A stretch of 48,353 nucleotides of DNA. Origin: Candidatus Woesearchaeota archaeon (lineage in GTDB: Archaea; Nanobdellota; Nanobdellia; Woesearchaeales; GW2011-AR9). Shown here piece by piece: positions 853 through 45,400 of the stretch. The notes under the pieces are model-generated. The model saw only the letters and a program-made list of their open reading frames with translations, searched no databases and had not been told where the DNA came from. The stretch spans positions 1 through 48,353 of the forward strand of contig JAGVYE010000006.1 of assembly GCA_018303445.1 (NCBI GenBank). Direction: 5' to 3'. Position 1 is the first letter of the stretch, and each line of letters starts with the position of its first letter. A program made the translations under genes and the position numbers.

Positions 853-2535
853 TTACATTTTTTCAAGGGCTTTAATCCCCAGGAGATTAAGCCCATTAGC
901 CAAGATTTGGCGTACCGCGTCAACTAAAGTTAAACGTGCCGATTTGATTTTAACTTCTTCTGAGAGGACAGGACAGGAATGATAAAACTCATTAAAAACA
1001 TGAGCTAAATCAAGGAGATAACGACATAAAAGATGGGGTTTATATTGTTTTGCCGCTTCCTTCACTGTATTGGAAAAGGTGCTCAAAAAAAGGACCAGAG
1101 CACGCTCTTGCGGTTGAATGAGAACTTCAAATGCGGCTTTCAGAGGTATCCGCCCGGCTTTCTCCAAGATAGAACAGGCTCGCGCATGGGTATATTGTAA
1201 ATAGGGGCCGGTTTCACCTTCAAAACTTAAAGATTCTTCCGGATTAAAAACCATATCCCGCGTCGCATCAGTTTTAAGCATGAAAAATTTAATCGCTGCT
1301 AAGCCAATAAATTCTGCTCTTTGTTTTATTTCTTTCTCGGAAAGATCTCGGTAGCGAGTGCGAACTTCTCTCTCCGCCAGTAAAGCCATCTCGTCCATTA
1401 AATCATCAGCGTCAATGACCATTCCTTCTCTGGACTTCATCCTGCCTGTAGGCAAGTTTACCATCCCATAACTTAAATGATACAGATCTTCGGCAAAAGG
1501 GCGTTCTAACAACGAAAGAATCTTAAACAATTGCTGGAAATGGAGGCGTTGTTCTGAAGCAACTACGTAAATCAAGTTATGAAACTTATAATCCAGATAT
1601 CGTTGCTGAGCAAGATACAAATCCTGTGTAATATACACGCTCGTCCCATCCCCGCGTAAAACAACCTTATTGGGAAGACCATATTGCTCTAAAGAAGCAA
1701 GGATATTTTTAGAGTCATCTTTTACAAAAACTTTTTTTTGAAGACCTTCAAACGCTACTTCTTTTCCTTGTTCATAGATCTCTGACTCGAAATACTCTTT
1801 ATCAAAAGATATGCCAAACCTTTTATAGGTTTTAGCAAATCCGTGCAGCACCCACGAATTCATCTTTTTCCAGAGCTTTCGTACTTCCGCATTTTTATAT
1901 TCCCACTGCCATAGCATCTGCTGTGCTTCCTCCTTTAAGTTAGGATCATCTTTCAGCTTTTGCGAAAAAAGTACATAGAAGTCCCCAACAAAATGATCTC
2001 CTTTTTTCTCCGGTTTTTTCCCTTTCCCCCATTTTTGATATGCGATCATGGACTGGCAAATATGGATGCCCCGGTCATTGACGATGTTAACAGGATGAAC
2101 TTTATTCCCCTGAAATGAAAGTAAACGGCACACTGCATTTCCCAGAGCCATATTTCGTATATGGCCTAAATGCAGTGGCTTATTGGTGTTTGGACCGCAA
2201 TATTCAACCACAATCGAGTCACGATCTTGTCCTGCACCGAATTTTTCTTTCTTTGTTCTAATTGGGGAGATTATTTCCTTTGCAACAAAAGGAACACTAA
2301 GAACAAAATTGAGATACGGTCCAACTACTTCTGCTTTAGAAATAAAAGAAGGGAGTTTTATCTTTTGTTTCAGTTTTTCCGCTTCTGCTTTTGGATTTTT
2401 CCCCAGTTTGAAACAAGAAAAAGCATAATCTCCCAGTTTAGGATCAGGAGGGACGGCAACGAGGTTTCCAACTTCCTCTTCCGGCAATCCCGTTTCTTTC
2501 ACGATTATCTTCACAAGTTCCTGCTTAAATTCCAT
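853..2535 (-). CDS. argS: Arginyl-tRNA synthetase
   Basis: Class I ArgRS, which charges tRNA-Arg with arginine in the cytoplasm. Numbering from a TTG six bases upstream, an Arg-tRNA-synthetase N-terminal domain (about 5-90) comes first. The HIGH-type motif Pro-Leu-His-Leu-Gly-His follows at 122-127, then a Met-Lys-Ser-Arg-Glu-Gly loop near 370 in the place of KMSKS, as is usual for ArgRS. A helical DALR anticodon-binding domain ends the protein. I chose the ATG at 2535 over the in-frame TTG at 2541 because a TATA-like box is centred 29 bp upstream of it, giving a leaderless transcript. Length (560) is typical. cutA follows 26 bp downstream. Structured element copy 1 lies just beyond the promoter. 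Confidence 0.96.
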   Translation of the reverse strand: MEFKQELVKIIVKETGLPEEEVGNLVAVPPDPKLGDYAFSCFKLGKNPKAEAEKLKQKIKLPSFISKAEVVGPYLNFVLSVPFVAKEIISPIRTKKEKFGAGQDRDSIVVEYCGPNTNKPLHLGHIRNMALGNAVCRLLSFQGNKVHPVNIVNDRGIHICQSMIAYQKWGKGKKPEKKGDHFVGDFYVLFSQKLKDDPNLKEEAQQMLWQWEYKNAEVRKLWKKMNSWVLHGFAKTYKRFGISFDKEYFESEIYEQGKEVAFEGLQKKVFVKDDSKNILASLEQYGLPNKVVLRGDGTSVYITQDLYLAQQRYLDYKFHNLIYVVASEQRLHFQQLFKILSLLERPFAEDLYHLSYGMVNLPTGRMKSREGMVIDADDLMDEMALLAEREVRTRYRDLSEKEIKQRAEFIGLAAIKFFMLKTDATRDMVFNPEESLSFEGETGPYLQYTHARACSILEKAGRIPLKAAFEVLIQPQERALVLFLSTFSNTVKEAAKQYKPHLLCRYLLDLAHVFNEFYHSCPVLSEEVKIKSARLTLVDAVRQILANGLNLLGIKALEKM

Positions 2536-2558
2536 AAACAAACCAGAAAGTAAAGAAC

Positions 2559-3897: not shown

Positions 3898-3907
3898 TTT
3901 TATAAAC
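3898..3907 (+). promoter_or_regulatory. TATA box for tRNA-Gln
   Basis: TTTTATAAAC lies about 32 bp before the first base of the tRNA. That places initiation a few bases upstream of the mature 5' end, as usual for archaeal tRNA genes. Confidence 0.6.
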
Positions 3908-3934: not shown

Positions 3935-4064
3935 AGCCCCGTGGTGTAGCGGACTAGCATAGAGCCCTTTGGCCCTTCATGGGATGAAAGGCTTTGACCT
4001 CGGTTCGAATAAGTTCCGTAAGAATATAATGAGAAGCGGAGCTTCGACTTTCCGAGCGGGGCTA
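3935..4064 (+). tRNA. tRNA-Gln(TTG) with two introns
   Basis: The 130-bp gene folds as a tRNA once two insertions are removed. Acceptor AGCCCCG (3935-3941) pairs with CGGGGCT (4057-4063); discriminator A is 4064. D stem GTGT/GCAT is at 3944-3947 and 3957-3960. Anticodon stem GAGCC (3962-3966) pairs with GGCTT (3990-3994), and anticodon TTG is 3969-3971. The loop holds 16 extra bases, best placed at 3973-3988, the canonical 37/38 intron site. T stem CTCGG (3999-4003) pairs with CCGAG (4052-4056), but 48 bases lie between the arms, so about 41 bases interrupt the T-loop. That insert has an 8-bp helix (4011-4018 with 4037-4044). The mature tRNA would be 73 nt with no encoded CCA. Exact intron ends are uncertain by 1-2 bases. 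A T8 run follows. Confidence 0.85.
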
Positions 4065-4072
4065 TTTTTTTT
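4065..4072 (+). terminator. Oligo-T terminator after tRNA-Gln
   Basis: Eight T residues directly follow the tRNA discriminator base, a typical archaeal RNA polymerase termination signal. Confidence 0.55.
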
Positions 4073-9794: not shown

Positions 9795-11549
9795 ATGCTT
9801 TCAGCAAGAACAATTGATAAGTATGTAGAACTGGTAAATGAAAAAGTGGCGGCAAGAACCGCTCTTACAGCACAACAAATTTTTGAGGCTGTGGAGAGAG
9901 ATTGTCAAAATGAACTATCAAAATTAGTTGAAGATCTCCAAGAGATTGTCCCTCATTTGGAGATTCCGCCGCCGCATTTATATGCTTTAAATGCAAATCT
10001 TTTTGTAGCCATTCTGGGTTATGGAAAAAAGAGAAGAAAGCTAGGAGATCACACTTTCTTTAATCACCCTTATGAAGCGGCAAAAATTGCCGCTGAAGCT
10101 TATGGAGATCTTCGATTGACTGATCTGGACACTTTCCTTGTTCGCATCGGAATAGGATTACACCATGATAGAGCAGAAGAACGAGTTGAAGATAGACTTA
10201 AGAAAGAAAAACAAGAGATAAGAACAGAAACCGTCTCAGAAATATTTCCCAGAAAAAGACGCCTGCCTAATCGAAGAATCTTCTTCGCTTTCTCACAAGT
10301 GGCAGAGTACTATGGAGTCCATCTTCCAGAGTATGAAGAAGAAATGCCTGAGTACAGAAAAAGGCTGGAAGAACTAGTTGGAAGAAAGAATGTAAAACAA
10401 ACACTACGGAGAAGAAATGCTAGTTCTCAAAATATTTGGGACTACTTTCCTCTTGCAGAGAAATATCGTGCCATAGTGGAAGAGAAAACCAACGACAGAG
10501 AAATACAGTATTTAGAAGAAGAAAGAAGAATTTTTGCCCATGAACTGGCAACTTCATTAATTATCGCAGAAAATTTTTGGGGGGAATTCGATGCTTCTCA
10601 AGTTCACCGAAGAATAAGAGTTTCCGTTAATTGCCTTACCAGAACAAGCGCAGAGCACTATTACAAATCATCAAAGAGAGTAGTTGCCAGTAGGAACTGG
10701 GATACAATTATTGGAAAACTTGTTGACAGAAGAGCTAACATGAGAAATTTAGATCTCAGAGAACCTGCAACAGATGAAATCAGATATTTTAAGTACACTA
10801 CTAAAAGAGAAGAAAGACAAACAAGCAGAGAATTAAAAGCCAGTTTAATTAGAAAAGAAGACCGCCTTGATCTCGTCTCGCTTCTTACTTTAAGTGATGA
10901 CGAAGAAAAAGGGACCATTGACCAAAGAGCATATGAAATTGTTAGAGAGAATGCCGAAAGACAGAGACGAGAAAATATATACGATCGAAAGAGAGGGAGC
11001 AGGAAAGTAGTACGTACTCATTTAAGACCACATGATAAATTATACCAGCTCTACAAAAATATTATTTCTATAACTCATATTCGCAGCAAGTATCAGCCCG
11101 CCGCGATTCCTGTAGAAGCAAAGTACCACCTTTATAAGCTGCTTGCAGAAACTAGAGAAGAAGCAGCAAAAATAGTTGAAGAAACGTTCTCCAGTTATTG
11201 CCGGCAGGAAAGTCCTAATTTTAAGCTTGCGGATGCCCGCCGCATTTATCTGGATATGCAAGAATATGAGAAATTAGGAGGATTTGCCAGAGTTACTCAG
11301 GAAGCTCAGGGAGCAAAAGACCCCTCCATTTTTGATGGGCTCCTAAAACGATACTTTGACCAGAGAGTAAGAGGTAACAAAAGCCTTAATGGAACTCTTC
11401 TCTACAACAAAGGAATGCTCTTTGCGACAGCTCTGGCATTACATAGATTAACTGAGATTTATATCCAAGATCAGGAATTTTATTTAGATGGAATGACTTA
11501 CCAAGGTCTTAAACCTTCACTGCCAGTTGCAGGAAGAAATAGAGAATAA
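9795..11549 (+). CDS. SpoT-like HD-domain phosphohydrolase, large insertion
   Basis: This 584-residue protein has the metal-binding pattern of the RelA/SpoT/MESH1 HD hydrolases. His-Pro is at 91-92 in an Asn-His-Pro-Tyr-Glu-Ala-Ala helix, and His-His-Asp at 123-125 is followed by an acidic Glu-Asp stretch. Val-Asp-Arg-Arg-Ala-Asn-Met-Arg-Asn-Leu lies at 310-319, which resembles the Lys-Leu-Ala-Asp-Arg-Leu-His-Asn-Met-Arg-Thr-Leu motif. The gap between the second and third motifs is much longer than in SpoT, so an insertion of over 100 residues is inferred. No synthetase domain is seen. It could cleave an alarmone or another nucleotide; substrate unknown. The C-terminal half is charged, helical and unrecognised. 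Transcription is probably leaderless. Confidence 0.65.
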   Translation: MLSARTIDKYVELVNEKVAARTALTAQQIFEAVERDCQNELSKLVEDLQEIVPHLEIPPPHLYALNANLFVAILGYGKKRRKLGDHTFFNHPYEAAKIAAEAYGDLRLTDLDTFLVRIGIGLHHDRAEERVEDRLKKEKQEIRTETVSEIFPRKRRLPNRRIFFAFSQVAEYYGVHLPEYEEEMPEYRKRLEELVGRKNVKQTLRRRNASSQNIWDYFPLAEKYRAIVEEKTNDREIQYLEEERRIFAHELATSLIIAENFWGEFDASQVHRRIRVSVNCLTRTSAEHYYKSSKRVVASRNWDTIIGKLVDRRANMRNLDLREPATDEIRYFKYTTKREERQTSRELKASLIRKEDRLDLVSLLTLSDDEEKGTIDQRAYEIVRENAERQRRENIYDRKRGSRKVVRTHLRPHDKLYQLYKNIISITHIRSKYQPAAIPVEAKYHLYKLLAETREEAAKIVEETFSSYCRQESPNFKLADARRIYLDMQEYEKLGGFARVTQEAQGAKDPSIFDGLLKRYFDQRVRGNKSLNGTLLYNKGMLFATALALHRLTEIYIQDQEFYLDGMTYQGLKPSLPVAGRNRE

Positions 11550-19844: not shown

Positions 19845-22800
19845 TTAAATACTCAGCTCCCCTGCCGTCAATCCTTTCCTCTGAATGATTAGCTGCCGCA
19901 CTTTCTCCTGCAATTCATAAGGCAATTTCTCAAACATTTGATCCATTAAAGAAGAATTTCCTCTTCCCTCAGTTGCCGAGCGCAAGTCATTGCTCCAGCC
20001 TAACAATTCTCCTACTGGTAATTTAGCCACAACAATGGTAAGATTACCTTCCTGATTCATTTCCAAAAGTTGTCCTCGTTTAGAGCTTACAAGCTTTGAA
20101 ATCTCTCCTACATAGTCATGCGGTATCTCTATTCTCATTACTTGCAAAGGCTCGTACATCACCGGACCAGCTTGCATCATTGCTCCCCGTATTCCTTCGC
20201 GAATCGCCGGATACATTTGAGCTGGCCCTCGATGGATCGCATCTTCATGCAACGTACAATCAGTTAAGCTGACCATAACATTGATGCAAGGTTCTTTTGC
20301 CAAAGGGCCGGCTTTCATGACATCTTGAAACATCTCCAAAACCATTTCCATGATCTCATTAATTTGCACAATGCCCCGAGTCGCGTCAAGAAAGAGATTT
20401 CCCCCATAAGCTGCTTTGACCATGCCTGCCCTCTTAGCATCCCAGTCGCATTCTTCCCGCAAAAAAGTAATGACTAAATCGTCCTTGCGGCGGTACCGCC
20501 CCGTAGGCATTTTTCCGCTCTTTAATCCTTCCGCGATCTTTGGATCCAAAGGTTCTACTTTAAAATACAGTTTGTTATGTTTGTTGGGAGTTTTCCCTTC
20601 TACTTCTAAACTTGGTTTGGTGATCGTTTCCCGATACACAACAATGGGCGGGGATGTTTTCACTTCCACTCCTTTCTCTGTGATGATTCTGTTTTCGATA
20701 ATTTCTAAATGGAGTTCGCCCATGCCGCTAATTAAGTTCTGGCCCGTTTCTTCATTAATTTCAACTTTAATGGAAGGATCTTCACGCCCAACTTTACGTA
20801 ATACCTCAATCAACTTTGGCAGATCTCCCGGCTTTTTCGGCTCAATGGCTTTGGTAATAACCGGTTCAAAAATATGCTTCAGTTCTTCAAAAGGCTCTTC
20901 CTGTTCAACTGTTACTGTTTCTCCCGCAAACCCGGTTACTCCGGAAATAGCTAAGACATTTCCTGCTGGCAAGGACTCGATGAGTTCAGGCTTTACCCCA
21001 TTGTAAATATACACATTTTGAACACGCTGCTTAAGTTTAGCATTATTTAAGTACACTTCCGTTCCCATTCTAATCGTTCCACTAAACAAACGTCCTGCGG
21101 AGATATCTTTTCCGGACTTAGGGTCAATCACAATACGAGTGATGACAAAAGCAATTTTCCCTTGAGGATTGCAGGTTAACAAATCTTTTCCTAATTGCGA
21201 TTCAGGATCGCCATGCCACATTTTTGGGATACGATAAATTTGTGCTGTGACAGGATCTGGAAGATGTTTTATGACCATGTCCAGAACAACTTCATGCAAG
21301 GGGGCATTTGCCCAGACCCATTCTTTTCTCTGTTCTTCTTCCATTTCGTAAATCATTAAAATGTCAGAAAATTTAATTCCTTTTTTCTGCATGTACGGAA
21401 AAGACAGCGCCCAGTTTTCCCGCGCGCTCCCAAAGGCTACACTTCCATCCTGCACGTTAACTTTCCATTTTTCTCGATACTGAGCCTCAGAGATATTTTC
21501 CACCATCGTGTTAAACTGCGTAACCAGAGCCAGGATACGCTGTGAGATTTGTTCGGGATTCAATTTTAACTCTTTCACCAGGCGGTCAACTTTATTAATA
21601 AATAAAACTGGTTTTACTCGTTCCCGTAAGGCTTGGCGGACAACCGTTTCCGTTTGGGGCATGACTCCTTCTACTCCGCAAATTAAGACAACTGTTCCGT
21701 CAATGGCCCGCATTGCTCTGGTAACATTTCCCCCAAAATCAACGTGCCCCGGCGTGTCAATGAGATTGATAAGATATTCTTCTCCTTTATAGGCATGAAC
21801 CATGGAAACATTCGCGGCATCAACAGTCATCAGCCGTTCTTGTTCATCTTTATGCTGCCAAGTCGCCATCCCTTCTTCTAAATCGCCTGCGGCTTTAGAG
21901 GACATCATTCCCGCTGCCGCTAAAAGATTGTCTGTAAAAGCCGTATTATGAATCACCATTCCTTCGGCAATGAAATTCTTATTATCTGGTATAGAGAAAT
22001 CATAAACGATTGGTTCTTCGCGTTGTTCTATTCTAATTATTTCAACAAAAGCCAAATCTCCAGAAGTTAACCGATCCATAATTGTTGTTTCCATGTGCAA
22101 ATCAGCCATTTGTTGCTTAAGGCGTAAAGCTGTTCCTAAAGTTGGCGTTAAAATTTGTTTTTCATATTTATAGTAGTGATGGTCAATAGAAGCCATGGGC
22201 ACTTTTCTTAACGAAATCATTTGAGCACTAGAAAGAGGAATAGTATCGGTAACTAAGTTGCCTTGGATTCTGGCAACTAACTTTTGAGTTTTCTGGATTT
22301 TATGTTCTACTTCAAAACTAATATTATCTAAATACTGCTTAGCCGATATCCCTGAAAGATACAAAGTATCATGACTAATTATACTTGTACAACTAAATCT
22401 AAGTAATAATAACTGCAGATCCTTTAACATCTGAGGACTTACCGAAGTAACTGAAACAGCTCTCCTGGATTCTTCTACCGTCCCATCACAATCAAAATAT
22501 GCTTTAATGAATTGAGAAACGGTATTCTGAGGCGCACGGAAGATGAAATCATTGAGGTGAATATTATGACTTTTTTGCCGAGCTGGATAATCAAACAAGG
22601 CTTTAAATAAATAAGTTAAAGATTCATTAGTTAACACTTCCGGCGTTCTGTCTTGATTTTCAACATAAATCGGATTGATACCTAAATTTCGGCAGATATT
22701 CATGCATTTATCTTTCAATTCCTGTTTTCCCACCACAAACTTTTTTCCACTGCCATCGCCAAAAAATAACCCTGCTAGATAAAATAATTCATTGAAATTT

Positions 22801-23588
22801 AAAGGCAAGGAGATTTCTTTGGTGCTTTTAGTAGTTGGTCTAAATGAAATTGATTTGATATGGTCATAAACACTGGAAATACTTTCAATCTTAAACAAAT
22901 CAACTAACTTTAATAACTGCGCTAGGGAATATCTACCCTGCCAAATTCCATGGTAAAACGATTTTTCTTTAACTGATAGTAAGTTAGCAATAGATTTTAG
23001 ACCGTGCCGCAGAATTCTATCTTTTAAATTCTCAGCATATTCCTGCTTTAATTTTACATGACAATGTTGTTTAGCCAGTCTCTGTAAAGTTTCCTCTTTA
23101 AGATTTAAAGTTTCATCAATATCTATTTTTCTAGCGCAAACGATGCGATCACCTAATTTTAACTCTTGAGCTTCTTTTTCGGCAAACTGCATATCTTCCA
23201 AAGTAATGTAACGATGCTCTGGAGTGGTCGTAATTTGAGCGCCGGTTCTCAATTTTACATTAATAGCACCTCCACCAGATAATTTCCAAGCATGACTAAT
23301 GACTTTTTTTTCCAGTTTACCTGTTTCTTTATTCAGAGAAAAGACACCAATATTGGTATGAGAAAGATCATAAACAGTTTCTTGAGCATCATCTCTTACC
23401 AAGGTGCCCAGAGTAGTAGCTTGTTGATATAGTTGTTCAGCAGTAATAACAGTTCCATCAGTTAGAAACAGCCTAGTATTAGGAGCTACACATTTTCCAT
23501 GATGTATATGGGCACTCGTACAAATATTTCGAATCTTGGAAGGTGTCTGCGTAATCCGCATCACCTTCTCAACCATTCTCTCTCCCAT
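19845..23588 (-). CDS. fusA: Elongation factor 2 with intein in the P-loop
   Basis: EF-2, the GTPase driving ribosomal translocation. After removal of a 516-residue intein the protein is about 731 residues, normal for archaeal EF-2. The intein sits between Lys and Thr of the G1 loop, which reads Ala-His-Ile-His-His-Gly-Lys/Thr-Ala where most EF-2 have Ala-His-Ile-Asp-His-Gly-Lys-Thr-Thr. G3 is Asp-Thr-Pro-Gly-His and G4 is Asn-Lys-Val-Asp. The C-terminal part has the diphthamide loop Asp-Ala-Ile-His-Arg-Gly-Pro-Ala-Gln. I chose ATG 23588, with GGTGA upstream, over the GTG at 23597. It lies in a cluster after NDK and ribosomal genes. It cannot bind GTP until the intein is spliced out. Confidence 0.97.
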   Translation of the reverse strand: MGERMVEKVMRITQTPSKIRNICTSAHIHHGKCVAPNTRLFLTDGTVITAEQLYQQATTLGTLVRDDAQETVYDLSHTNIGVFSLNKETGKLEKKVISHAWKLSGGGAINVKLRTGAQITTTPEHRYITLEDMQFAEKEAQELKLGDRIVCARKIDIDETLNLKEETLQRLAKQHCHVKLKQEYAENLKDRILRHGLKSIANLLSVKEKSFYHGIWQGRYSLAQLLKLVDLFKIESISSVYDHIKSISFRPTTKSTKEISLPLNFNELFYLAGLFFGDGSGKKFVVGKQELKDKCMNICRNLGINPIYVENQDRTPEVLTNESLTYLFKALFDYPARQKSHNIHLNDFIFRAPQNTVSQFIKAYFDCDGTVEESRRAVSVTSVSPQMLKDLQLLLLRFSCTSIISHDTLYLSGISAKQYLDNISFEVEHKIQKTQKLVARIQGNLVTDTIPLSSAQMISLRKVPMASIDHHYYKYEKQILTPTLGTALRLKQQMADLHMETTIMDRLTSGDLAFVEIIRIEQREEPIVYDFSIPDNKNFIAEGMVIHNTAFTDNLLAAAGMMSSKAAGDLEEGMATWQHKDEQERLMTVDAANVSMVHAYKGEEYLINLIDTPGHVDFGGNVTRAMRAIDGTVVLICGVEGVMPQTETVVRQALRERVKPVLFINKVDRLVKELKLNPEQISQRILALVTQFNTMVENISEAQYREKWKVNVQDGSVAFGSARENWALSFPYMQKKGIKFSDILMIYEMEEEQRKEWVWANAPLHEVVLDMVIKHLPDPVTAQIYRIPKMWHGDPESQLGKDLLTCNPQGKIAFVITRIVIDPKSGKDISAGRLFSGTIRMGTEVYLNNAKLKQRVQNVYIYNGVKPELIESLPAGNVLAISGVTGFAGETVTVEQEEPFEELKHIFEPVITKAIEPKKPGDLPKLIEVLRKVGREDPSIKVEINEETGQNLISGMGELHLEIIENRIITEKGVEVKTSPPIVVYRETITKPSLEVEGKTPNKHNKLYFKVEPLDPKIAEGLKSGKMPTGRYRRKDDLVITFLREECDWDAKRAGMVKAAYGGNLFLDATRGIVQINEIMEMVLEMFQDVMKAGPLAKEPCINVMVSLTDCTLHEDAIHRGPAQMYPAIREGIRGAMMQAGPVMYEPLQVMRIEIPHDYVGEISKLVSSKRGQLLEMNQEGNLTIVVAKLPVGELLGWSNDLRSATEGRGNSSLMDQMFEKLPYELQEKVRQLIIQRKGLTAGELSI
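21945..23492 (-). other. Intein with LAGLIDADG endonuclease, in EF-2
   Basis: Codons 36-551, counted from the GTG at 23597, form a self-splicing protein intron. It starts with Cys-Val-Ala-Pro-Asn-Thr (block A), has Thr-Thr-Pro-Glu-His-Arg-Tyr (block B), two dodecapeptide endonuclease motifs (Leu-Ala-Gly-Leu-Phe-Phe-Gly-Asp-Gly near 274-282 and Ile-Lys-Ala-Tyr-Phe-Asp-Cys-Asp-Gly near 364-372), block F with Val-Tyr-Asp-Phe-Ser-Ile-Pro, and ends Val-Ile-His-Asn before Thr of the host. All catalytic positions look intact, so both splicing and homing activity are plausible. Confidence 0.95.
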
Positions 23589-23628
23589 GATTGTCACCTA
23601 TTCCTATTAATTGAATTTCTAAACAAAA

Positions 23629-35113: not shown

Positions 35114-38100
35114 CTACAACTGCCTTTTCTTTTGATACCAGGTTAATCCTACTATGGTTATCACCACAACTGCGGCAAAGAGAACGATGACCCAGCCCAC
35201 TTTACCAACAACTTTGCCGACGCTCGTTGCTAAGCCCGCTAACGCTGACGGCCCTGCCCGTCCTGCCGGCTGCTGCGCAGCTGCTTCCGCTCCTCCTGCG
35301 GCCACTGGCGCTTGCTGTTGCGCTTCTTGTTGCTGTTCTGCTGCTTGCCCTCCTGTTCCACCTCTGCTTGGCTGCTGTGCCGGCTGTTGCGCTGGCTGTG
35401 CTTTCACCCCTATATTGGGCAGTGTACCTCCTCCTCCACTGCTGCCACGACCAGCAGTACCGCTGGTGGTGCTGCTGCTGCTTCCTGTTGAAGTTGTACT
35501 TTTATAAGTAGAAAATCCTAACCCCACCGCATCAGGAACTAAACATTCCGTCTCTGTCGCGCTGAAGGTACATGTAACTTTACTTGTCACATCTTGGCAA
35601 TTACTTCCGCTATCATCACAGTGCTGTAATACCGTGTCAGCCACTCCATCAGAAGTAGGGATGGAAACTATAGCTTTATCTAACCCTGTCTTTTGCTTAA
35701 AGGCTTGGTACTGATTTGCGTCCATGCCCAACAATTCCGTTCCCGTAAAGAATGATGAGATGTTCAAAGTTTGTTTTTCAAAGATATCAATGCCCACGAG
35801 AGTGATGGAACGAGCGCTTTGAGTATCATTAATAGTAATATTAACATTGGTTAAAAGCTGTGTTGATGCTTTCAATGCATAAGTGGGAGTATAATTGCTT
35901 AAATTCAATGAAGGAATATCTAAAGTCCAGTTATCCGGAATATCAAACTTAAACGTGATATTCACATATTTAAACGAAGTAGTGGCATTATTACAGGCTG
36001 TTACCGCGCAATTTCCACTTGGATCACAGACATTTAATTTATAGAAATACGTAACATTAGAATTTAACCCCGTTACATCTGCAACGTGATGGGGCCTAAA
36101 GTTAGTATGGCTATCTCCATCATTTAATGCCGAGTCATTGATCGTGGCATTCAATGTTGAACAGCGTGAATCATTATAATAATATTTTACCGTTCCATTA
36201 GCCGGCTCGTTGGTGTCAAAGATAAAAGATAATTGCGTAGGCAGGCGGTTATTAATTTTATTCCAGACAATGCTTGGCGCGCTTTCATCGCCTTCTACAG
36301 CCGTAAAGCTGCCGCCGCAGAAGAACGGATCATAGGCGCAATCCAAATCATTACAATCAGTCTTATCATCGCCGTCATTATCGATGTTGTCTTTACATGC
36401 CGGCCCAAACTCGCCAGGGAAGAAGCCAAACTGTTTAAATTTGCTGCATTGTGCTTTATCTTTAGAAGCCGTGCTCGTGCAATCGAAAATCTCCACATTG
36501 ATCCCTTTAAAATCCGCTGAACCAGGCCCAACGGAATCAGTTATATTTGAAGCATTTCCCCCTAAGCCCGCGCTTGTTGCATAAGCTCTCCATTTGGCGC
36601 TGACATTAACATCGCTCTTGCCTGTAAAGGCTTCTTTATCAATCGCCAGAATAGGACCGCCCACAAAGCCGCAGCCGTGTTGTTTATTAGATTTTACAGG
36701 GACATTACTCGAGACCCAATTTCCACTCGAACAATGTTCAGCAAGTAATGTTTCTTTCAGCCTGCTTGTTGCTGTATCCAGCTCTGCTATGTACTTAAAG
36801 TTATACTCAAAGCCGATTTTTGTGGCATCATCTCGAGCTGCGCATCCTCCTGTAGAAACATCATTAGTATCAAGATAAAGATAATACTTAGAAGTATTTG
36901 TCCCATTTCCAATAGTTGCTCCCGTCAGCCCCATCGCTACCCCCTTACAGATCATGGAATCAGACAGGTTTCGCACCATAATTCCATACGAATACGCATC
37001 ATCCATTTTTTTCATGCCTAATCCAGTAATATCTAAGAACCCGGAAGCTATATCTCCTGAACCGTCTGAAGAAATCGCCACAGGCGGCTCTTTATCAATT
37101 CCGGCAAAGAAAGTATTAGTAGATTTATCTTCGCACATTCCTGACCGAGTGCGTACGCGCCAGCCTAAATCTAGAAATAAATTATCTGTAAGCTCAGGAT
37201 CATAATTAGATCTATTACCATCAATAATGACCGTTCTCGTCGTGGTTGTATCGCTGACATTATAATTAAGATTATCGGTCGCGTCCAAATATAAATTACT
37301 TACGGGAATTTCCCACAACGCTTCAATGGCGGAAATCCTTTCTCCGGCAATGGTCGTGCTGTTAAAAAAATAATGAAGCACCGTTCCATTACACGTCGCT
37401 TCAGCATAGGCATTACAAGTTCCAATCATACAGGAACTATTAGTATAATTATATTCCATCATGATTGTCCTTTCACTAAATCCACCGCAAACTATGCGGG
37501 AAATGTTTGCCGTAAGATTTCTCGGGCTGAGGTTTCCTGACATTTCCAAACGGAGATAACTTCCATCCGTGGCATTTAAAAAATAAAATGAAGCATTATA
37601 TCCTCCTGGATTCCCAAAATCATCTCCGGCTTGATTTCCTGGCCGCGTTAAGCCAATAGCCATCCACTGGGCATTAACGTTAATAGTATCGTTTCGCAAA
37701 GGACTCGGATGGCGTAACGCGCCAAAATTATTAATTCCACTAACCCATTGGCAGGAAGGATTTCCCGTACAGGAATTTATATCGCCATCAAATTGGAAAC
37801 AATCTGCTACATTGGAAACAGGCTTGCAATATCCGCTGGTCCATAAGCATGTTCCCGCGCCAAAAGCCGTGCCATTGGCCGTACAATCCGCTTGCGTTGT
37901 AATTAAACCATTCGTGCACGGATCAACACAACTTTCTGATTGAAATCCTTCAAATCCGCCGCTAAACTCATTTCCCCGCCATAAGCAGCCTGCCGTTTCA
38001 CATACTGCTTGATCCGTCTGCACTGAAGCATTATTAGTGCAGCGCACAAAAACCGTCATCGCGCAAAACCCGCCATTGGCAGAATCCCAAGTGCATCCAG

Positions 38101-41100
38101 CCGTCGCATTGCACGTGCCAGAATCAATCAATAAACTGCACGTGTTCAGCATCGTCGAGTTAAGTTCACAGGAATCTTCTGCTTTCCAACTGCACACGCT
38201 TCCACTTAAGAATGATGTGCAGGCGGTTTGATTATGTTCCATAGACTGATTTTCCCAGCATTGGAATGAAGAAGGCTTACAGCTTGCGAAACCAAAATCA
38301 TCACTAAACCAACTGCATCCGGAAACGGCCGTGCAACTTGTCTGTGCCGCCGCCGGAGAACCGTAACTAAAAATATCATATTGGAAGCAATTATTTGGGT
38401 CGGTAGAATCACCGCCGCAGAAAGGGTCAAAGGTGCATTTAAAATCATTACAATCTGTTTGCCCATTATTATCATTGTCAAGGGCATCAAAACAAACTTC
38501 AAATTCACCCGATCTTGGCGTGCAGAAATTTGCCGTTAAATCCCATTGGCAGCCGCCGTTAGCAGGAGAACCGGTGCAAGTTGTTTGAGAATTACATTGA
38601 AAGCAGTCTTGATTGCAGCCTCTCACGCCATTATCAATGCAAAAGTTAGTGACATTATCCCACTTGCAAACCGCGCTTGAGTTTTGGCATGCGGGCTGGG
38701 GATTAGGCATGATGTTACAATCCCCGCAATGTTCATCGCAATCAAACCCTCCGCTTTCTTGGGCAGGAACGCACCACCCTAAGCCATTAAACGCATTCGT
38801 GTTAACTTGAAAAAGACAGCCGGCGGCAGAATTTTGGCATTGCACCTGGGCATCAGAAAGTGTTGTCCAGGGAGTTCCATCACTTTGATATTCACAGGCA
38901 AAACAATCCCTGCTGCAATCCCGAAGCTGGCTAAGGTCGCCGCCAAAATTTTGGGAGCCAGGCCCAATTTCGGCAAACGTTTTTATGTCTACGTTAAACT
39001 CGCACCATTTTTCCGCGGTAACTTTATTGGCAACGGGATCAAAAGTATTCTCTTGCTTCCATAGTCCTCCCATTACGTCGCAAGTATCCTCGCTGGTAAT
39101 ATCATCAAAATTATCCTGCCTGGTAAAATCTAAAAAGCGCGTCTCGCACTGGCTGGTTTTATTATTCCAGCCGCATGGTAAAAAATATAAATTCGCCAAA
39201 TCCCCGCAGCCAGACTGATTATTTACGTAACCGCGAGCTTCACAGGAAGAAACTGGCGGCGAAGGTAGATTAGCTAATGTTTTTGACCTGTTGAAAACAC
39301 ATGCTAGTACATCTTCATCCCAGCTGCATAATCCTGTTCCTTGCGTAAAGCCTTGGTTTTCACAAAATGTGCTATTCTCCACGATAGCTGTACAGTTATA
39401 ACCAACAAAAGAATTATAAAAATTAATTGTGTCTTCTACACATAACCCTTGTGTTCCCGCTGTGGCATCCCAGCTACAGTAAAAAAGAAGAGGATTAGTG
39501 AATCCATCAGCGCCGCAGGCTGATGGAGGAAGGCCCCGACAGGAAGCTTTGTCATGATCTTCAAAAAAATCTTCCGCTAGACAAATTCCATTCAACCATT
39601 GACATTCGCGAACAGGATTAGTAAAACAAGCATCAATGGTTGTATTCAGTATACAGCCGCTGAGTTTATCATTTGTTGTAAGCGTCGCATTATTTGTTTC
39701 ACTATGGAACTTATATTCAAACGTGATACTTGAACCTACTGTTAAATTCTTGACATACAGCGCCACGGAAGTGTTGTCCGGAAGTAAAAAAGCCACCGCA
39801 TCTCCAGGATTGACAAAAGCCTTTGTTTGGCAGCCATAACAACTATTGATAAAATTATCTCTATAAGAAGAATTTGGCACACGAAGGAAATTACTGCGGA
39901 ACTCATCGCCTTGCAATTCTGATGAAAAAAATCCCATAAACAATAACTGCGCCCCATTGATTGCCTCGACATAAGATTCATATGAAGTAATATTATCAAA
40001 TCGTATATAACCCGCTGCCCCGGCAAAGCTTTGATTGCTGAAGTTAAACGTCGCAGAAGAATTGTCAGTAATATCCTGCATTGTCACATTGCCGCTAAAA
40101 AAAATCTGAGGTAAATTATTTGTAAACAATTTAATCTGCCAATCCAGGGAACCGGCAGCACTCGCGCCCACGACTGTGACATTGTTTGACCCGCTTTGGA
40201 TGGCGATACCCCTTGCCGCTTCATCAAAAGAATACGATTTATTCCATGCCGTCGTGTTTTCTGTTCCTGAAGAATTAAACATTTTTAGAAGCCAATTAAA
40301 ATTAAATGTAGTGGGATTAAAATAGGATCCAACAACATACACATTATCTTGAAAATCAACCCCTACATCATAGGCATAATCACCAGCTAAAAGATCTTCA
40401 CTCAGATTGAAGACCTTATCCCACCCTGCGACAATTTCCGTTCCCGAACGATTATATTTCTTAATCACCCAGTATCTATCAACAGCAGAGTTATTACTGG
40501 TAGAATAGCCTGCAACATAAACATTATCCTGAGAATCAACAGCAACGCTATATGCTTCATCATTTATAGAAGAGACGGAACGAAAAGTTTTGTTCCACTC
40601 TGTTACTTCCTCTGAATCATTCAGGTAAAACTTCTTCATCCACCAATCATAAGTACCGACAAACTCTGCCCGTTCTAATGATCCCACAACATATAAGCTA
40701 TCTTGGGAATCGACCGCGGCAGCATAGGCGAAATCACGGCCTCCCATTCCACCATCATATCCTGCATTAAAAGATTTATTCCACTGTGTTGTATTCTCTG
40801 TTCCGCTGCGATTAAAACGCTTAATCCACCAATCCCGGTTGGTGGCTAAATTACTTACTAAATTATCCCCATACCCAACAACATAAATATTATCTTGAGA
40901 ATCAACAGCAATACCTCGGGCAGGTAATACATTTACATTCCCCGCATTGCTATCCCAGAACGTTTTATTCCACTCTGTTATTTCTTCCGAAGCGTTAGGA
41001 TAATACTTTTTAATATGCCAAGCGCTGAGACTCATCGAATCCGTTAGATATCCTGCCACATAGACATTATCTTGCGAATCAACGGCCACACCATATGGTT

Positions 41101-41458
41101 TTTCAATGCTCCCATAATTAATACTTTTATTCCAACTAAGATTTTCTACTCCTAAAGCATCATACCGTTTCAACATCCATGAACTAGAAATATCTGCAAC
41201 TTCTCCTACAACATACAAATGCTTTTGCGAATCAAAGACCGCATCATAGGCAATATCTATACCCATTTCATCTGCGCGAAGATCATACGTTTTATTCCAG
41301 CGCAGTTCATCTTCCGCCGGAGGAGCAGCAACGAAAATGAGAAAAAGTAATAGCATTACAAAGAGCATTACAGTAAAGCCATACTTACCGTGAAATTTAA
41401 ACTTCAATGACAATACCCCCTTTTTCCCATATGAATTCCTGCCTAAATTCATGTACAT
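35114..41458 (-). CDS. Giant Cys-rich surface protein with beta-propeller (2114 aa)
   Basis: A secreted, membrane-anchored giant. Order: signal peptide; seven repeats of 50-60 residues from about 53 to 450, each with Trp-Asn-Lys, Val-Asp-Ser-Gln-Asp-Asn-Val-Tyr-Val-Ala-Gly and a Trp-x-x-Lys-x-Tyr/Phe strand, forming a probable seven-bladed propeller; a beta-sandwich-like region; many Cys/Trp modules; two acidic Asp-Asn-Asp-Asn-Asn-Gly calcium-type loops; a fibronectin-III-like domain; a long Gln/Ala/Gly/Pro linker; a final membrane helix and basic tail. Asn-x-Ser/Thr sites are abundant. The frame opens at ATG 41458, but TTG 41407, after GGGGGT, would put the signal peptide right at the start. 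It leads an operon with doxX and VKOR. Confidence 0.88.
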   Translation of the reverse strand: MYMNLGRNSYGKKGVLSLKFKFHGKYGFTVMLFVMLLLFLIFVAAPPAEDELRWNKTYDLRADEMGIDIAYDAVFDSQKHLYVVGEVADISSSWMLKRYDALGVENLSWNKSINYGSIEKPYGVAVDSQDNVYVAGYLTDSMSLSAWHIKKYYPNASEEITEWNKTFWDSNAGNVNVLPARGIAVDSQDNIYVVGYGDNLVSNLATNRDWWIKRFNRSGTENTTQWNKSFNAGYDGGMGGRDFAYAAAVDSQDSLYVVGSLERAEFVGTYDWWMKKFYLNDSEEVTEWNKTFRSVSSINDEAYSVAVDSQDNVYVAGYSTSNNSAVDRYWVIKKYNRSGTEIVAGWDKVFNLSEDLLAGDYAYDVGVDFQDNVYVVGSYFNPTTFNFNWLLKMFNSSGTENTTAWNKSYSFDEAARGIAIQSGSNNVTVVGASAAGSLDWQIKLFTNNLPQIFFSGNVTMQDITDNSSATFNFSNQSFAGAAGYIRFDNITSYESYVEAINGAQLLFMGFFSSELQGDEFRSNFLRVPNSSYRDNFINSCYGCQTKAFVNPGDAVAFLLPDNTSVALYVKNLTVGSSITFEYKFHSETNNATLTTNDKLSGCILNTTIDACFTNPVRECQWLNGICLAEDFFEDHDKASCRGLPPSACGADGFTNPLLFYCSWDATAGTQGLCVEDTINFYNSFVGYNCTAIVENSTFCENQGFTQGTGLCSWDEDVLACVFNRSKTLANLPSPPVSSCEARGYVNNQSGCGDLANLYFLPCGWNNKTSQCETRFLDFTRQDNFDDITSEDTCDVMGGLWKQENTFDPVANKVTAEKWCEFNVDIKTFAEIGPGSQNFGGDLSQLRDCSRDCFACEYQSDGTPWTTLSDAQVQCQNSAAGCLFQVNTNAFNGLGWCVPAQESGGFDCDEHCGDCNIMPNPQPACQNSSAVCKWDNVTNFCIDNGVRGCNQDCFQCNSQTTCTGSPANGGCQWDLTANFCTPRSGEFEVCFDALDNDNNGQTDCNDFKCTFDPFCGGDSTDPNNCFQYDIFSYGSPAAAQTSCTAVSGCSWFSDDFGFASCKPSSFQCWENQSMEHNQTACTSFLSGSVCSWKAEDSCELNSTMLNTCSLLIDSGTCNATAGCTWDSANGGFCAMTVFVRCTNNASVQTDQAVCETAGCLWRGNEFSGGFEGFQSESCVDPCTNGLITTQADCTANGTAFGAGTCLWTSGYCKPVSNVADCFQFDGDINSCTGNPSCQWVSGINNFGALRHPSPLRNDTINVNAQWMAIGLTRPGNQAGDDFGNPGGYNASFYFLNATDGSYLRLEMSGNLSPRNLTANISRIVCGGFSERTIMMEYNYTNSSCMIGTCNAYAEATCNGTVLHYFFNSTTIAGERISAIEALWEIPVSNLYLDATDNLNYNVSDTTTTRTVIIDGNRSNYDPELTDNLFLDLGWRVRTRSGMCEDKSTNTFFAGIDKEPPVAISSDGSGDIASGFLDITGLGMKKMDDAYSYGIMVRNLSDSMICKGVAMGLTGATIGNGTNTSKYYLYLDTNDVSTGGCAARDDATKIGFEYNFKYIAELDTATSRLKETLLAEHCSSGNWVSSNVPVKSNKQHGCGFVGGPILAIDKEAFTGKSDVNVSAKWRAYATSAGLGGNASNITDSVGPGSADFKGINVEIFDCTSTASKDKAQCSKFKQFGFFPGEFGPACKDNIDNDGDDKTDCNDLDCAYDPFFCGGSFTAVEGDESAPSIVWNKINNRLPTQLSFIFDTNEPANGTVKYYYNDSRCSTLNATINDSALNDGDSHTNFRPHHVADVTGLNSNVTYFYKLNVCDPSGNCAVTACNNATTSFKYVNITFKFDIPDNWTLDIPSLNLSNYTPTYALKASTQLLTNVNITINDTQSARSITLVGIDIFEKQTLNISSFFTGTELLGMDANQYQAFKQKTGLDKAIVSIPTSDGVADTVLQHCDDSGSNCQDVTSKVTCTFSATETECLVPDAVGLGFSTYKSTTSTGSSSSTTSGTAGRGSSGGGGTLPNIGVKAQPAQQPAQQPSRGGTGGQAAEQQQEAQQQAPVAAGGAEAAAQQPAGRAGPSALAGLATSVGKVVGKVGWVIVLFAAVVVITIVGLTWYQKKRQL
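35140..35345 (-). repeat. Near-identical 3' ends of the two giant genes
   Basis: DNA here matches 42470-42672 almost base for base, covering the Gln/Ala linker and membrane helix. Another strongly matching block is 36299-36450 with 43618-43769. The remaining parts of the genes are much more diverged, which suggests recombination between the copies. Confidence 0.8.
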
Positions 41459-42445: not shown

Positions 42446-45400
42446 CTATTCCTGTCTCTTCTTAAACCACGTTAAAGCTGCAATGGTTATCACCACAACT
42501 GCGGCAAAGAGAACGATGACCCAGCCTACTTTACCGACTGCCTTCCCAACGCTCATGGCTAAGCCCGCTAACGCTGACGGTCCTGCCCGTCCTGCCGGCT
42601 GCTGCGCAGCTGCTTCCGCTCCTCCTGCGGCCACTGGCGCTTGCTGTTGCGCTTCTTGTTGCTGTGCTGCTGCTTGCCCGCCAGTTCCCCCTGTGCTTGG
42701 AGGCTGTTGTGCTGGCTGTGGTGCTACTGCCGTATTTGGAAGCGATCCGCCGCCGCCGCCACCACCACCAGATGAACTGCTGGTGGTGCTGGAAGATGTT
42801 GTAGTAGCTGTCGTAGTTTTGTATGATGAGAATCCTAACCCCACCGCATCTGGAACTTCACATTCCGTATCTGTCGCGCTGAATGTACATGTTACTTCAC
42901 CTGTGACATCCTGACAGTCAGTTCCATCATCTTCACAATGCTGCAATATCGTGTCAACCACGGCGTCAGAAGTGGGAATGGTAACAATCGTTTTATCCAA
43001 CCCTGTCTTCTGCTTGAAAGCTTGATACTGGTTGGCATCAATTCCGAGGAAGTCGCTTCCTGTCGAAAACGAGGAAATGTTCAACGTCTGCTTTTCAAAG
43101 ATATCAACGTCAACAAACTTAATCGAGCGGCCGCTGGTTGTATCATTAACGGTGATGTTAATTCCCGTTAAGCGATCCGAAGATGCTTTAATTGCGTATG
43201 TCGGTGTGAAGTTTGTCAAGTTCAGTGAAGGAATGTCCACTGTCCAATTGTCAGGAAGATCTAACTTAAAGGTAACATTCACCGGTTTTGCAGACGTTGT
43301 CGCGTTGCTGCATTCGCTCATTGCACAATTTCCACTTGGATCACAGACATTGTACTTGTAAAAATATGTGCTGTTTGCGTTTAACCCAGTTACTTTCGCA
43401 ACGTGATGGGGCCTGAAATTTGTGTGCGTATCGCCATCACTTAAAGCCGTATCGTTAATCGTCGCATTCAACGTTGCGCAAGTAGTGTCATTGTAATAAT
43501 ACTTCACTGTTCCATTGGAAGGCTCATCCGTGCCAAAAGTAAATGCAAGTTGTGTGGGAACTTTTTCATTAATCTTATTCCAAACAACAGTTGGAACATC
43601 ATCGTCATCAGCTCTCGCCGTAAAGCTACCGCCGCAGAAGAACGGATCATAGGCGCAATCCAAGTCATTGCAGTCAGTCTCATCATCGCCGTCATTATCC
43701 ATGTTGTCTTTACATGCCGGCCCAAACTCGCCAGGGAAGCAGCCAAACTGTTTAAACTTGCTGCATTTTGAATTGTCTTTTTGTGCCGTACTGGAGCAAT
43801 CGAAAATCTTCATGTTGATCCCATCAAAGTCAGCCGTTCCAGGAACTGTTCCATCAGTAACGTTAGTCGAGTTCCCCCCTAATCCTGTTGCTGTTGCATA
43901 GGCTCTCCACTTAGCGCTCGTGTTCACATTGCTTTTGGTATGAAGAGTTCCTTTATCAATAGCAAGAATAGGCCCGCCTACAAAGCCGCAGCCGTGCTGC
44001 TTATTAGACTTTACAGGAACATTGCTGGAAACCCAGCTCCCAGAGGAACAAATCTGTGCTGTCAAGACTTCAGATACTACTCCTCGTTGAAGTTCTACGA
44101 CGTACTTAAACAGGTGCTCAAATCCAGTATAACCGAAACCATCAGACGCTGAGCATCCTCCTGTTGAAACACCATTGGTATCGAGGTAAAGGTAATACTT
44201 CGACGTATTCGTTCCATTGCCAATGACACTTCCCGTCGTTCCTACTTTTATACCATTGCAAACCGCCGAGTCACTCATATTCCGCACCGGAATGCCATAC
44301 GCGTATGCTTCTTCTGTCTTTTTCACGCCTAAACCAACAATGTCTATGAACCCGGAAGCGACATCACCCGAGGGGTCACTGGCTATAATTTTCGGTGGTT
44401 CTTGATCCATCCCTTGGAACATCTTGTTTTCAAAGATCGGGTTACACATTCCTGTTTGTGTGCGCACCCGTGTAGCATTGGTTATGGAATCATTCGCGGA
44501 AGAACTTTCCGGAACATGATTTGTTAAGAACCCGTCAACTACAACCGTCGAGAAATTAGCCGTATCAGTAACATTAGAATTATTACTTAGCGTATCAAGG
44601 TACAACAGCCCGACATCTCTTTCCCAGAGAACTTCTATCGTCTCCATTGTACTGTTGAAGAAGTAATTAACAGTTGACCCATTGCAAGTATACCTGTCAA
44701 AGGCATTACAAGTGCCAGACTGACAAGTGCTATTAGAATAATTATACTGCACAAAGATCGTTCTTGTGTCTTGACTGCCGCAAATAATCTGAGAGATATT
44801 CACTGAAACACTCGCATCAGGCGAGGAAAGGTTCGCCGCCATTTCAATTCGCACGTAACCGCCATCCGTTCCATTCAACCCATATGCTGATTCATTCTGC
44901 GACGTATCACTATTCCTTGGCCTTTGCAATCCAATGGCCATCCAGCTCTGGAAGGAACGAATCGTTCCATTCTGCAGCGCATTAGGATTTTTCAAGTCTC
45001 CCGGCAGTGGAATCCAGACACAGTTCGTGTTTGCTTTACACGCGGTTATATCTCCATCATAATCAAAGCATACACTAATACTATCTTTAGCTTGACAGAA
45101 CCCCGTGCTCCAGATACACGTCCCAGCACTGATCACGCTGCCATTCGCCGCGCAATTTGCTGCATCAAGAATACCCGGATTCTGACATGGCTCTACACAA
45201 TTAGAACTGCCACGGAAACCTTCAAAGCTCCCTCCTTGGAATTCATTTCCTCTCCAATAACAATTTTGCGATTCACACAAAGTCTGACTACTCTGTATAC
45301 TCATATTATCAGAACACCTGCCAATAGCAGCTACTTCGCAAATGCTTCTTGGTGTGCTCCACTGGCAGCCACCTACAGCATTACACGTCCCCGCAGTTTG

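Follow-up and report, generated by a model that had tools for sequence, protein, structure and literature searches.

A tRNA-Gln gene with two introns

We analysed a 48,353-nucleotide stretch of DNA (the window) from contig JAGVYE010000006.1 of a Candidatus Woesearchaeota archaeon. Our subject is the segment 3935-4064 on the forward strand (AGCCCCG...CGGGGCTA), which is confirmed as a tRNA-Gln(UUG) gene interrupted by two introns. The locus is organised as follows.

3899-3906 (+): TATA box, TTTATAAA, 36 nt upstream of the tRNA-Gln gene, 8/8 match
3935-4064 (+): tRNA-Gln(UUG) gene with two introns, from ARAGORN on the spliced form and orthologues in relatives
3935-3972 (+): exon 1, from the sequence and the ARAGORN cloverleaf; acceptor 5' strand 3935-3941, D-arm 3944-3960, anticodon stem 5' strand 3962-3966, then C32, U33, anticodon UUG 3969-3971 and G37
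3973-3988 (+): intron 1, 16 nt, position 37/38, from ARAGORN i(39,16), the free-fold hairpin and orthologues
3989-4009 (+): exon 2, from the sequence and ARAGORN; A38, anticodon stem 3' strand 3990-3994, variable region, T-stem 5' strand 3999-4003 and T-loop UUCGAA 4004-4009
4010-4050 (+): intron 2, 41 nt, T-loop position 59/60, inner helix of at least 8 bp, from the fold, ARAGORN, covariance model R1 (see below) and covariation
4051-4064 (+): exon 3, from ARAGORN; U60, T-stem 3' strand 4052-4056, acceptor 3' strand 4057-4063 and A73 at 4064
4065-4072 (+): run of eight T, a probable terminator, from the sequence

Once both introns are removed, the remaining 73 nt are called as tRNA-Gln(ttg) by ARAGORN, with every stem paired. 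The acceptor stem (3935-3941/4057-4063) has 7/7 Watson-Crick pairs, the T-stem (3999-4003/4052-4056) is 5/5 paired and the anticodon stem is formed by 3962-3966/3990-3994. When the T-loop intron alone is taken out, the intron mode of ARAGORN itself places a 16-nt intron after base 38. The unspliced gene yields no ARAGORN call, and in the raw window it is missed by both ARAGORN and Rfam, as is to be expected with two interruptions. Folded without constraints, the precursor (z = -2.9 over its whole length against shuffles) contains the acceptor, anticodon and T stems together with a bulge-helix-bulge (BHB) in the T-arm, which has an 8-bp inner helix. Intron 1 forms a CCC/GGG hairpin in this fold. 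No group I or group II self-splicing intron was matched above the Rfam threshold, and 41 nt is also far too short for one.

An original prediction for this locus had proposed an intron in the anticodon loop and another in the T-loop, stems that all pair after removal of the inserts, and a separate 8-bp helix in the T-loop insert. Our analysis agrees on each of these points, with 16 nt at 37/38, 41 nt at 59/60 and gene coordinates that proved exact. The prediction lacked the main point, namely the wide distribution of T-loop introns across this genome and its relatives and the occurrence of one homologous intron family in many tRNAs. It had also named an intact tRNA-Gln elsewhere, combined with a lack of reads from this locus, as a sign of decay. 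A search with the mature sequence found no further tRNA-Gln in the window genome, which is 95% complete and for which the tRNA inventory is partial. CAA and CAG codons are both in use in the genes of the window.

Introns in the tRNA-Gln genes of relatives

The DNA search for tRNA-Gln covered 60 relatives and returned matches from many genera. Many of them carry an intron at 37/38 (for example loci L022, L023, L024 and L026). In genome G013 the anticodon intron is a perfect strict BHB, with a CUUU/AAAG helix, the bulges GG^U and AG^A and a CCC/GGG inner helix. T-loop inserts are present at L025, L026, L029, L031, L044, L053 and L055, D-arm inserts at L031, L033, L040, L043 and L050, and inserts adjoining the T-stem at L035 and L043. 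The tRNA-Gln genes of G003 (L037) and G045 (L041) are intron-free. Introns thus vary among the relatives, and the two-intron state in the window is one point in a changing series.

More inserts are seen in the tRNA-Gln genes L031, L033, L035, L040, L042, L043 and L050, on the 5' side of the D-arm, in the D-loop, within the anticodon stem and where the T-loop begins. The tRNA-Gln genes of the family sample no fewer than five intron positions.

A T-loop intron family in about a dozen tRNA types

The search with tRNA-Gln also matched the T-arms of other tRNAs: one in the window genome (G000:C42), two in G001 and one in G029. A covariance model of the T-loop intron (R1), built on five members, gave 28 matches in 17 of the 49 genomes of the family-level group, plus weaker ones elsewhere in the order, outside this family. 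Almost every family-level match has a 7/7 acceptor stem and a D-arm in place. ARAGORN called none of the 26 members of the intron family unspliced and 21 of them once spliced, with the cut after base 59 and the sequence resumed at U60. The hosts comprise about a dozen tRNA types (Gln, Cys, Arg, Lys, Ala, His, Trp, Gly, Phe, Met and Pro), assigned from ARAGORN and a reading of the anticodon stem, and tentative for genes with further introns. Outside the constrained 3' end, the T-loop introns of the Gln, Cys, Arg and Lys tRNAs share a similarity that was reached by at most 3 of 3000 shuffles. An origin of the locus by chance is excluded, because orthologous tRNA-Gln genes occur in relatives and the T-loop intron recurs in other tRNAs.

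A separate scan was based on an intact T-stem, U60, the acceptor stem and the D-arm, and did not demand pairing of the intron. It found 43 T-loop introns of 12-81 nt. At least three of the four central pairs form in 43/43 introns, compared with 22/164 control positions; all four form in 24/43, and G stands at intron position -5 in every one. The 16 introns not picked by the covariance model all have at least three central pairs as well. A TATA box matching at 7/8 or better precedes 30 of the 43 host genes, mostly 31-36 nt upstream, and is found in 10% of random 60-mers.

T-loop introns of the window genome are located in tRNA-Gln, in five more tRNAs that a similar scan found (L005/L017, L012, L013, L014 and L015) and in the tRNAs on C42 and C18. 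Some introns in this genome, the 13-nt T-loop intron of L015 among them, leave no room for an inner helix. Two other tRNA genes of the genome, L018 (G000:C28:6376-6395) and L011 (G000:C14:29056-29193), carry very long inserts with intact T-loops, the gene lengths being 169 and 137 nt.

We infer that the T-loop intron family spread by transposition among many tRNA genes of the order. Candidate routes are reverse splicing, recombination with cDNA and a mobile element, the last of which was proposed for Caldiarchaeum (PMC3293823). At L054 (G029:C35, about 10600-10800, reverse strand) a second copy of the 3' half of tRNA-Cys, carrying the T-loop intron, lies no more than ~15 nt downstream of the intact gene. 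This half duplication is possibly a trace of intron gain or loss via recombination.

Structure of the junctions and proposed splicing

The register of the T-loop introns is the canonical one: intron bases -6 to -3 are paired with loop bases 54-57, which correspond to bases 32-35 at a 37/38 intron. Exon base 57 and intron base -6 covary in the 26 family members, with 16 G-C and 10 A-U combinations and no exceptions (Fisher p = 2e-7, a value made optimistic by sequence kinship). Intron bases -5 and -4 are G and A, respectively, in all 26. An early placement of the T-loop cut, derived from a 55-58 helix, gave T-loops of 9-10 nt and was dropped in favour of the 59/60 register.

It is very likely that 3935-4064 is the working tRNA-Gln gene of a Woesearchaeales-like archaeon, apparently its only one, and that it carries two archaeal BHB introns, which would be removed by splicing. 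In both 7-nt loops, the intron follows the sixth loop base, and its bases -6 to -3 pair with loop bases 1-4. The 5' bulge consists of loop bases 5-6 and the first intron base, the 3' bulge of the last two intron bases and loop base 7. A single alpha-type EndA would cut both bulges of each intron, and RtcB would ligate the exons. The T-loop intron would presumably have to leave before the T-loop folds and gets modified. Structurally, the 59/60 bond looks like a twin of 37/38, and this would account for introns settling at it.

A pseudogene disrupted by insertions, with another tRNA-Gln active in its place, would be missed by ARAGORN and Rfam just as the gene is as it stands. The stems of the gene are all intact, however, its TATA box is retained and the 95%-complete genome, with its partial tRNA inventory, yielded no second tRNA-Gln. 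The same introns also occur in roughly a dozen tRNA types, where the acceptor stems are perfect and the pairing is preserved, and we consider decay very improbable. Retention of the T-loop insert in the tRNA, as an enlarged and structured T-loop, would agree with the stable fold of the insert alone. This option is even harder to credit: the T-loop has to dock with the D-loop, many tRNA types have inserts (12-81 nt) at one and the same bond, some orthologues lack them, and a BHB is found at every junction.

The T-loop inserts could also reflect events at the DNA level only, such as tandem T-loop duplications or scars of mobile elements, with no meaning for the RNA. The resemblance of the intron end UUCGA to the T-loop UUCGA points in this direction, as does the duplicated tRNA 3' half with its insert beside an intact copy in G029. 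In the A57 class, however, the exon reads UUCAA and the intron ends in UUGA, the complement of the exon and not a copy of it, which rules out a mere tandem duplication of the T-loop. Pairing is moreover kept in 43 introns of differing sequence, among which no insert breaking the pairing of 54-57 with -6 to -3 was found. We give this explanation as little credence as retention of the insert.

A single alpha-type EndA gene

The original prediction suggested inspecting the EndA subunit type. One EndA gene, of alpha type and 198 amino acids (G000:C52:27403-27996), and one RtcB gene were found in the window genome. The closest solved chains are the alpha subunit of Nanoarchaeum equitans, which is closest by sequence, and the alpha-4 enzyme of Methanocaldococcus jannaschii. 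Across 40 genomes, no gene for a second EndA subunit exceeded the Pfam cut-off; in G017, two fragments overlap at a single place. An (alpha-beta)2 or epsilon-2 enzyme would call for a second subunit gene or a three-unit fusion of roughly 390 amino acids, whereas the one gene found encodes 198 amino acids. The EndA alignment shows no insertion of the ARMAN-2 type-specific loop (ASL) kind, which is linked to broad specificity. A GKVEL stretch contains a Lys that is nearly constant in the family, yet it does not lie at the ASL position.

With its single gene, alpha size and lack of an ASL-type insertion, the window EndA has the features of an alpha-4 enzyme. It departs from the two-arginine bulge clamp of that class: the second site is Trp instead of Arg, in all aligned family members. 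This Trp aligns with W384 of the ARMAN-2 EndA, where W384 and R275 clamp the bulge base (PMC12397907). On the alignment, the window EndA has the Arg/Trp clamp of broad-specificity enzymes.

Several observations count against removal of both introns by such an enzyme. According to published rules, an alpha-only EndA without the ASL or the Crenarchaea-specific loop (CSL) accepts strict BHBs only (PMC6379350). Neither window intron forms a strict BHB, defined by a 4-bp helix and two 3-nt bulges, each having 3/4 pairs. The mismatch is U33:U in intron 1, whose central helix is weak, and U54:C in intron 2. The relaxed BHB that had been predicted for the T-loop is thus present in the form of this one mismatch, but the relaxation is only mild and the canonical register is kept. 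A BHB at the junctions is supported by the unconstrained fold, the covariation and 43/43 T-loop introns.

Either the alpha-type EndA is broader in specificity than its class, or a diverged partner is hidden. In the latter case, the introns would be spliced by an (alpha-beta)2 EndA whose strongly diverged beta subunit is missed by the profile search. The closest solved chain, the N. equitans alpha subunit, does work with a beta partner. Against this, the 40 genomes held no second gene at the Pfam cut-off, and the window EndA matches the N. equitans beta chain with E = 3e-13, so that a beta subunit of that kind should be visible. We regard a hidden partner as unlikely, though well ahead of decay, retention or DNA-level events. 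The boldest reading, which we rate as somewhat less likely than not, is that a mobile family of T-loop introns has entered about a dozen tRNA species of Woesearchaeales and that their one-gene EndA belongs to a functional class not yet described. This enzyme, probably a homotetramer without CSL or ASL and with the Arg/Trp clamp, would remove these and other relaxed introns.

Comparison with known systems

Archaea are known to have T-loop introns and several BHB introns per gene set, with intron transposition described in Thermoproteales and multiple introns in Nanoarchaeum and ARMAN (PMC4033280, PMC6379350, PMC3218864). Multiple and non-canonical tRNA introns with large-scale intron transposition are described for Thermoproteales (Pyrobaculum and others) by Sugahara 2008 and Fujishima 2010, as summarised in PMC4033280 and PMC3218864. 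Our case resembles them in that one tRNA holds BHB introns at more than one position and that similar intron sequences occur across tRNA species. It differs in the DPANN order, in the 59/60 bond as a recurrent site and in the one EndA gene, as opposed to the crenarchaeal (alpha-beta)2 pair with CSL. N. equitans and ARMAN-1/2, which have multiple tRNA introns and split tRNAs, share with it the DPANN affiliation and the presence of more than one tRNA intron. Here, in contrast, only an alpha-type EndA gene was found, and an intron family is common to many tRNAs.

Permuted tRNAs of Thermofilum pendens are joined at 59/60 (PMC3218864). They have an EndA-type junction at the same T-loop bond; unlike them, the genes studied here have the normal order, and the segment at 59/60 is an intron. 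The M. jannaschii alpha-4 EndA (PDB 1a79) likewise derives from one gene of ~180-200 amino acids, lacks an ASL-type insertion and has a catalytic Tyr-His-Lys, but the window EndA sits in a genome full of non-canonical introns.

The window EndA is 68% identical to that of a Woesearchaeota metagenome-assembled genome, the level of order-level relatives, from which we infer a Woesearchaeales-like placement. The DPANN-like genome of the original prediction is supported. The prediction also treated the DPANN setting as notable; this does not hold for DPANN as such, since multiple and non-canonical introns were already reported in N. equitans and ARMAN-1/2 (PMC4033280), and it is the Woesearchaeales-like lineage that is new. 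Within the open-access literature, we found no reports of tRNA introns in Woesearchaeota or in DPANN beyond Nanoarchaeum and ARMAN, subscription papers lying outside this scope. New, then, are the lineage, the recurrent 59/60 site with a single intron family shared by many tRNAs, and a one-gene EndA that lacks an ASL-type insertion.

Other features of the window

The elongation factor 2 gene (19845-23597, reverse strand, 1250 amino acids) has a P-loop (HHGK) interrupted by an intein-like stretch. This stretch starts with CVAPNTRLFLTDG and ends with VIHN before TAF, and its middle is apparently homing-endonuclease-like. Two giant cysteine-rich paralogues of 2114 and 1676 amino acids (35114-41458 and 42446-47476, both reverse strand) are probably surface-anchored; their C-terminal Gln/Ala-rich tails are near-identical and a final membrane helix is present. 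The arginyl-tRNA synthetase (853-2541, reverse strand) matches mostly bacterial (Bacteroidales) and a few DPANN genomes. The predominance of bacterial matches suggests that the gene may have been acquired by horizontal transfer.

Implications for the order

With the Rfam tRNA model at E up to 0.001, nine tRNAs are found in the window genome and 3-29 across its family. Many of the low-tRNA genomes of the family are near-complete, such as the two-contig G015 with 10. Some genomes in other families of the order yield 34-40, others as few as 9. Taken as a proxy for interruption, although a low number may have other causes, these counts suggest that tRNA interruption is a property of a large part of the order.

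Standard searches miss many tRNAs in this order, and its tRNA sets would therefore look falsely incomplete. The order is also a second lineage, remote from Thermoproteales, where one can trace how a single intron spread across tRNA genes. A connection has been proposed between EndA architecture and intron freedom, and the order tests it directly: its non-canonical introns are abundant beside an apparently plain alpha-type EndA.
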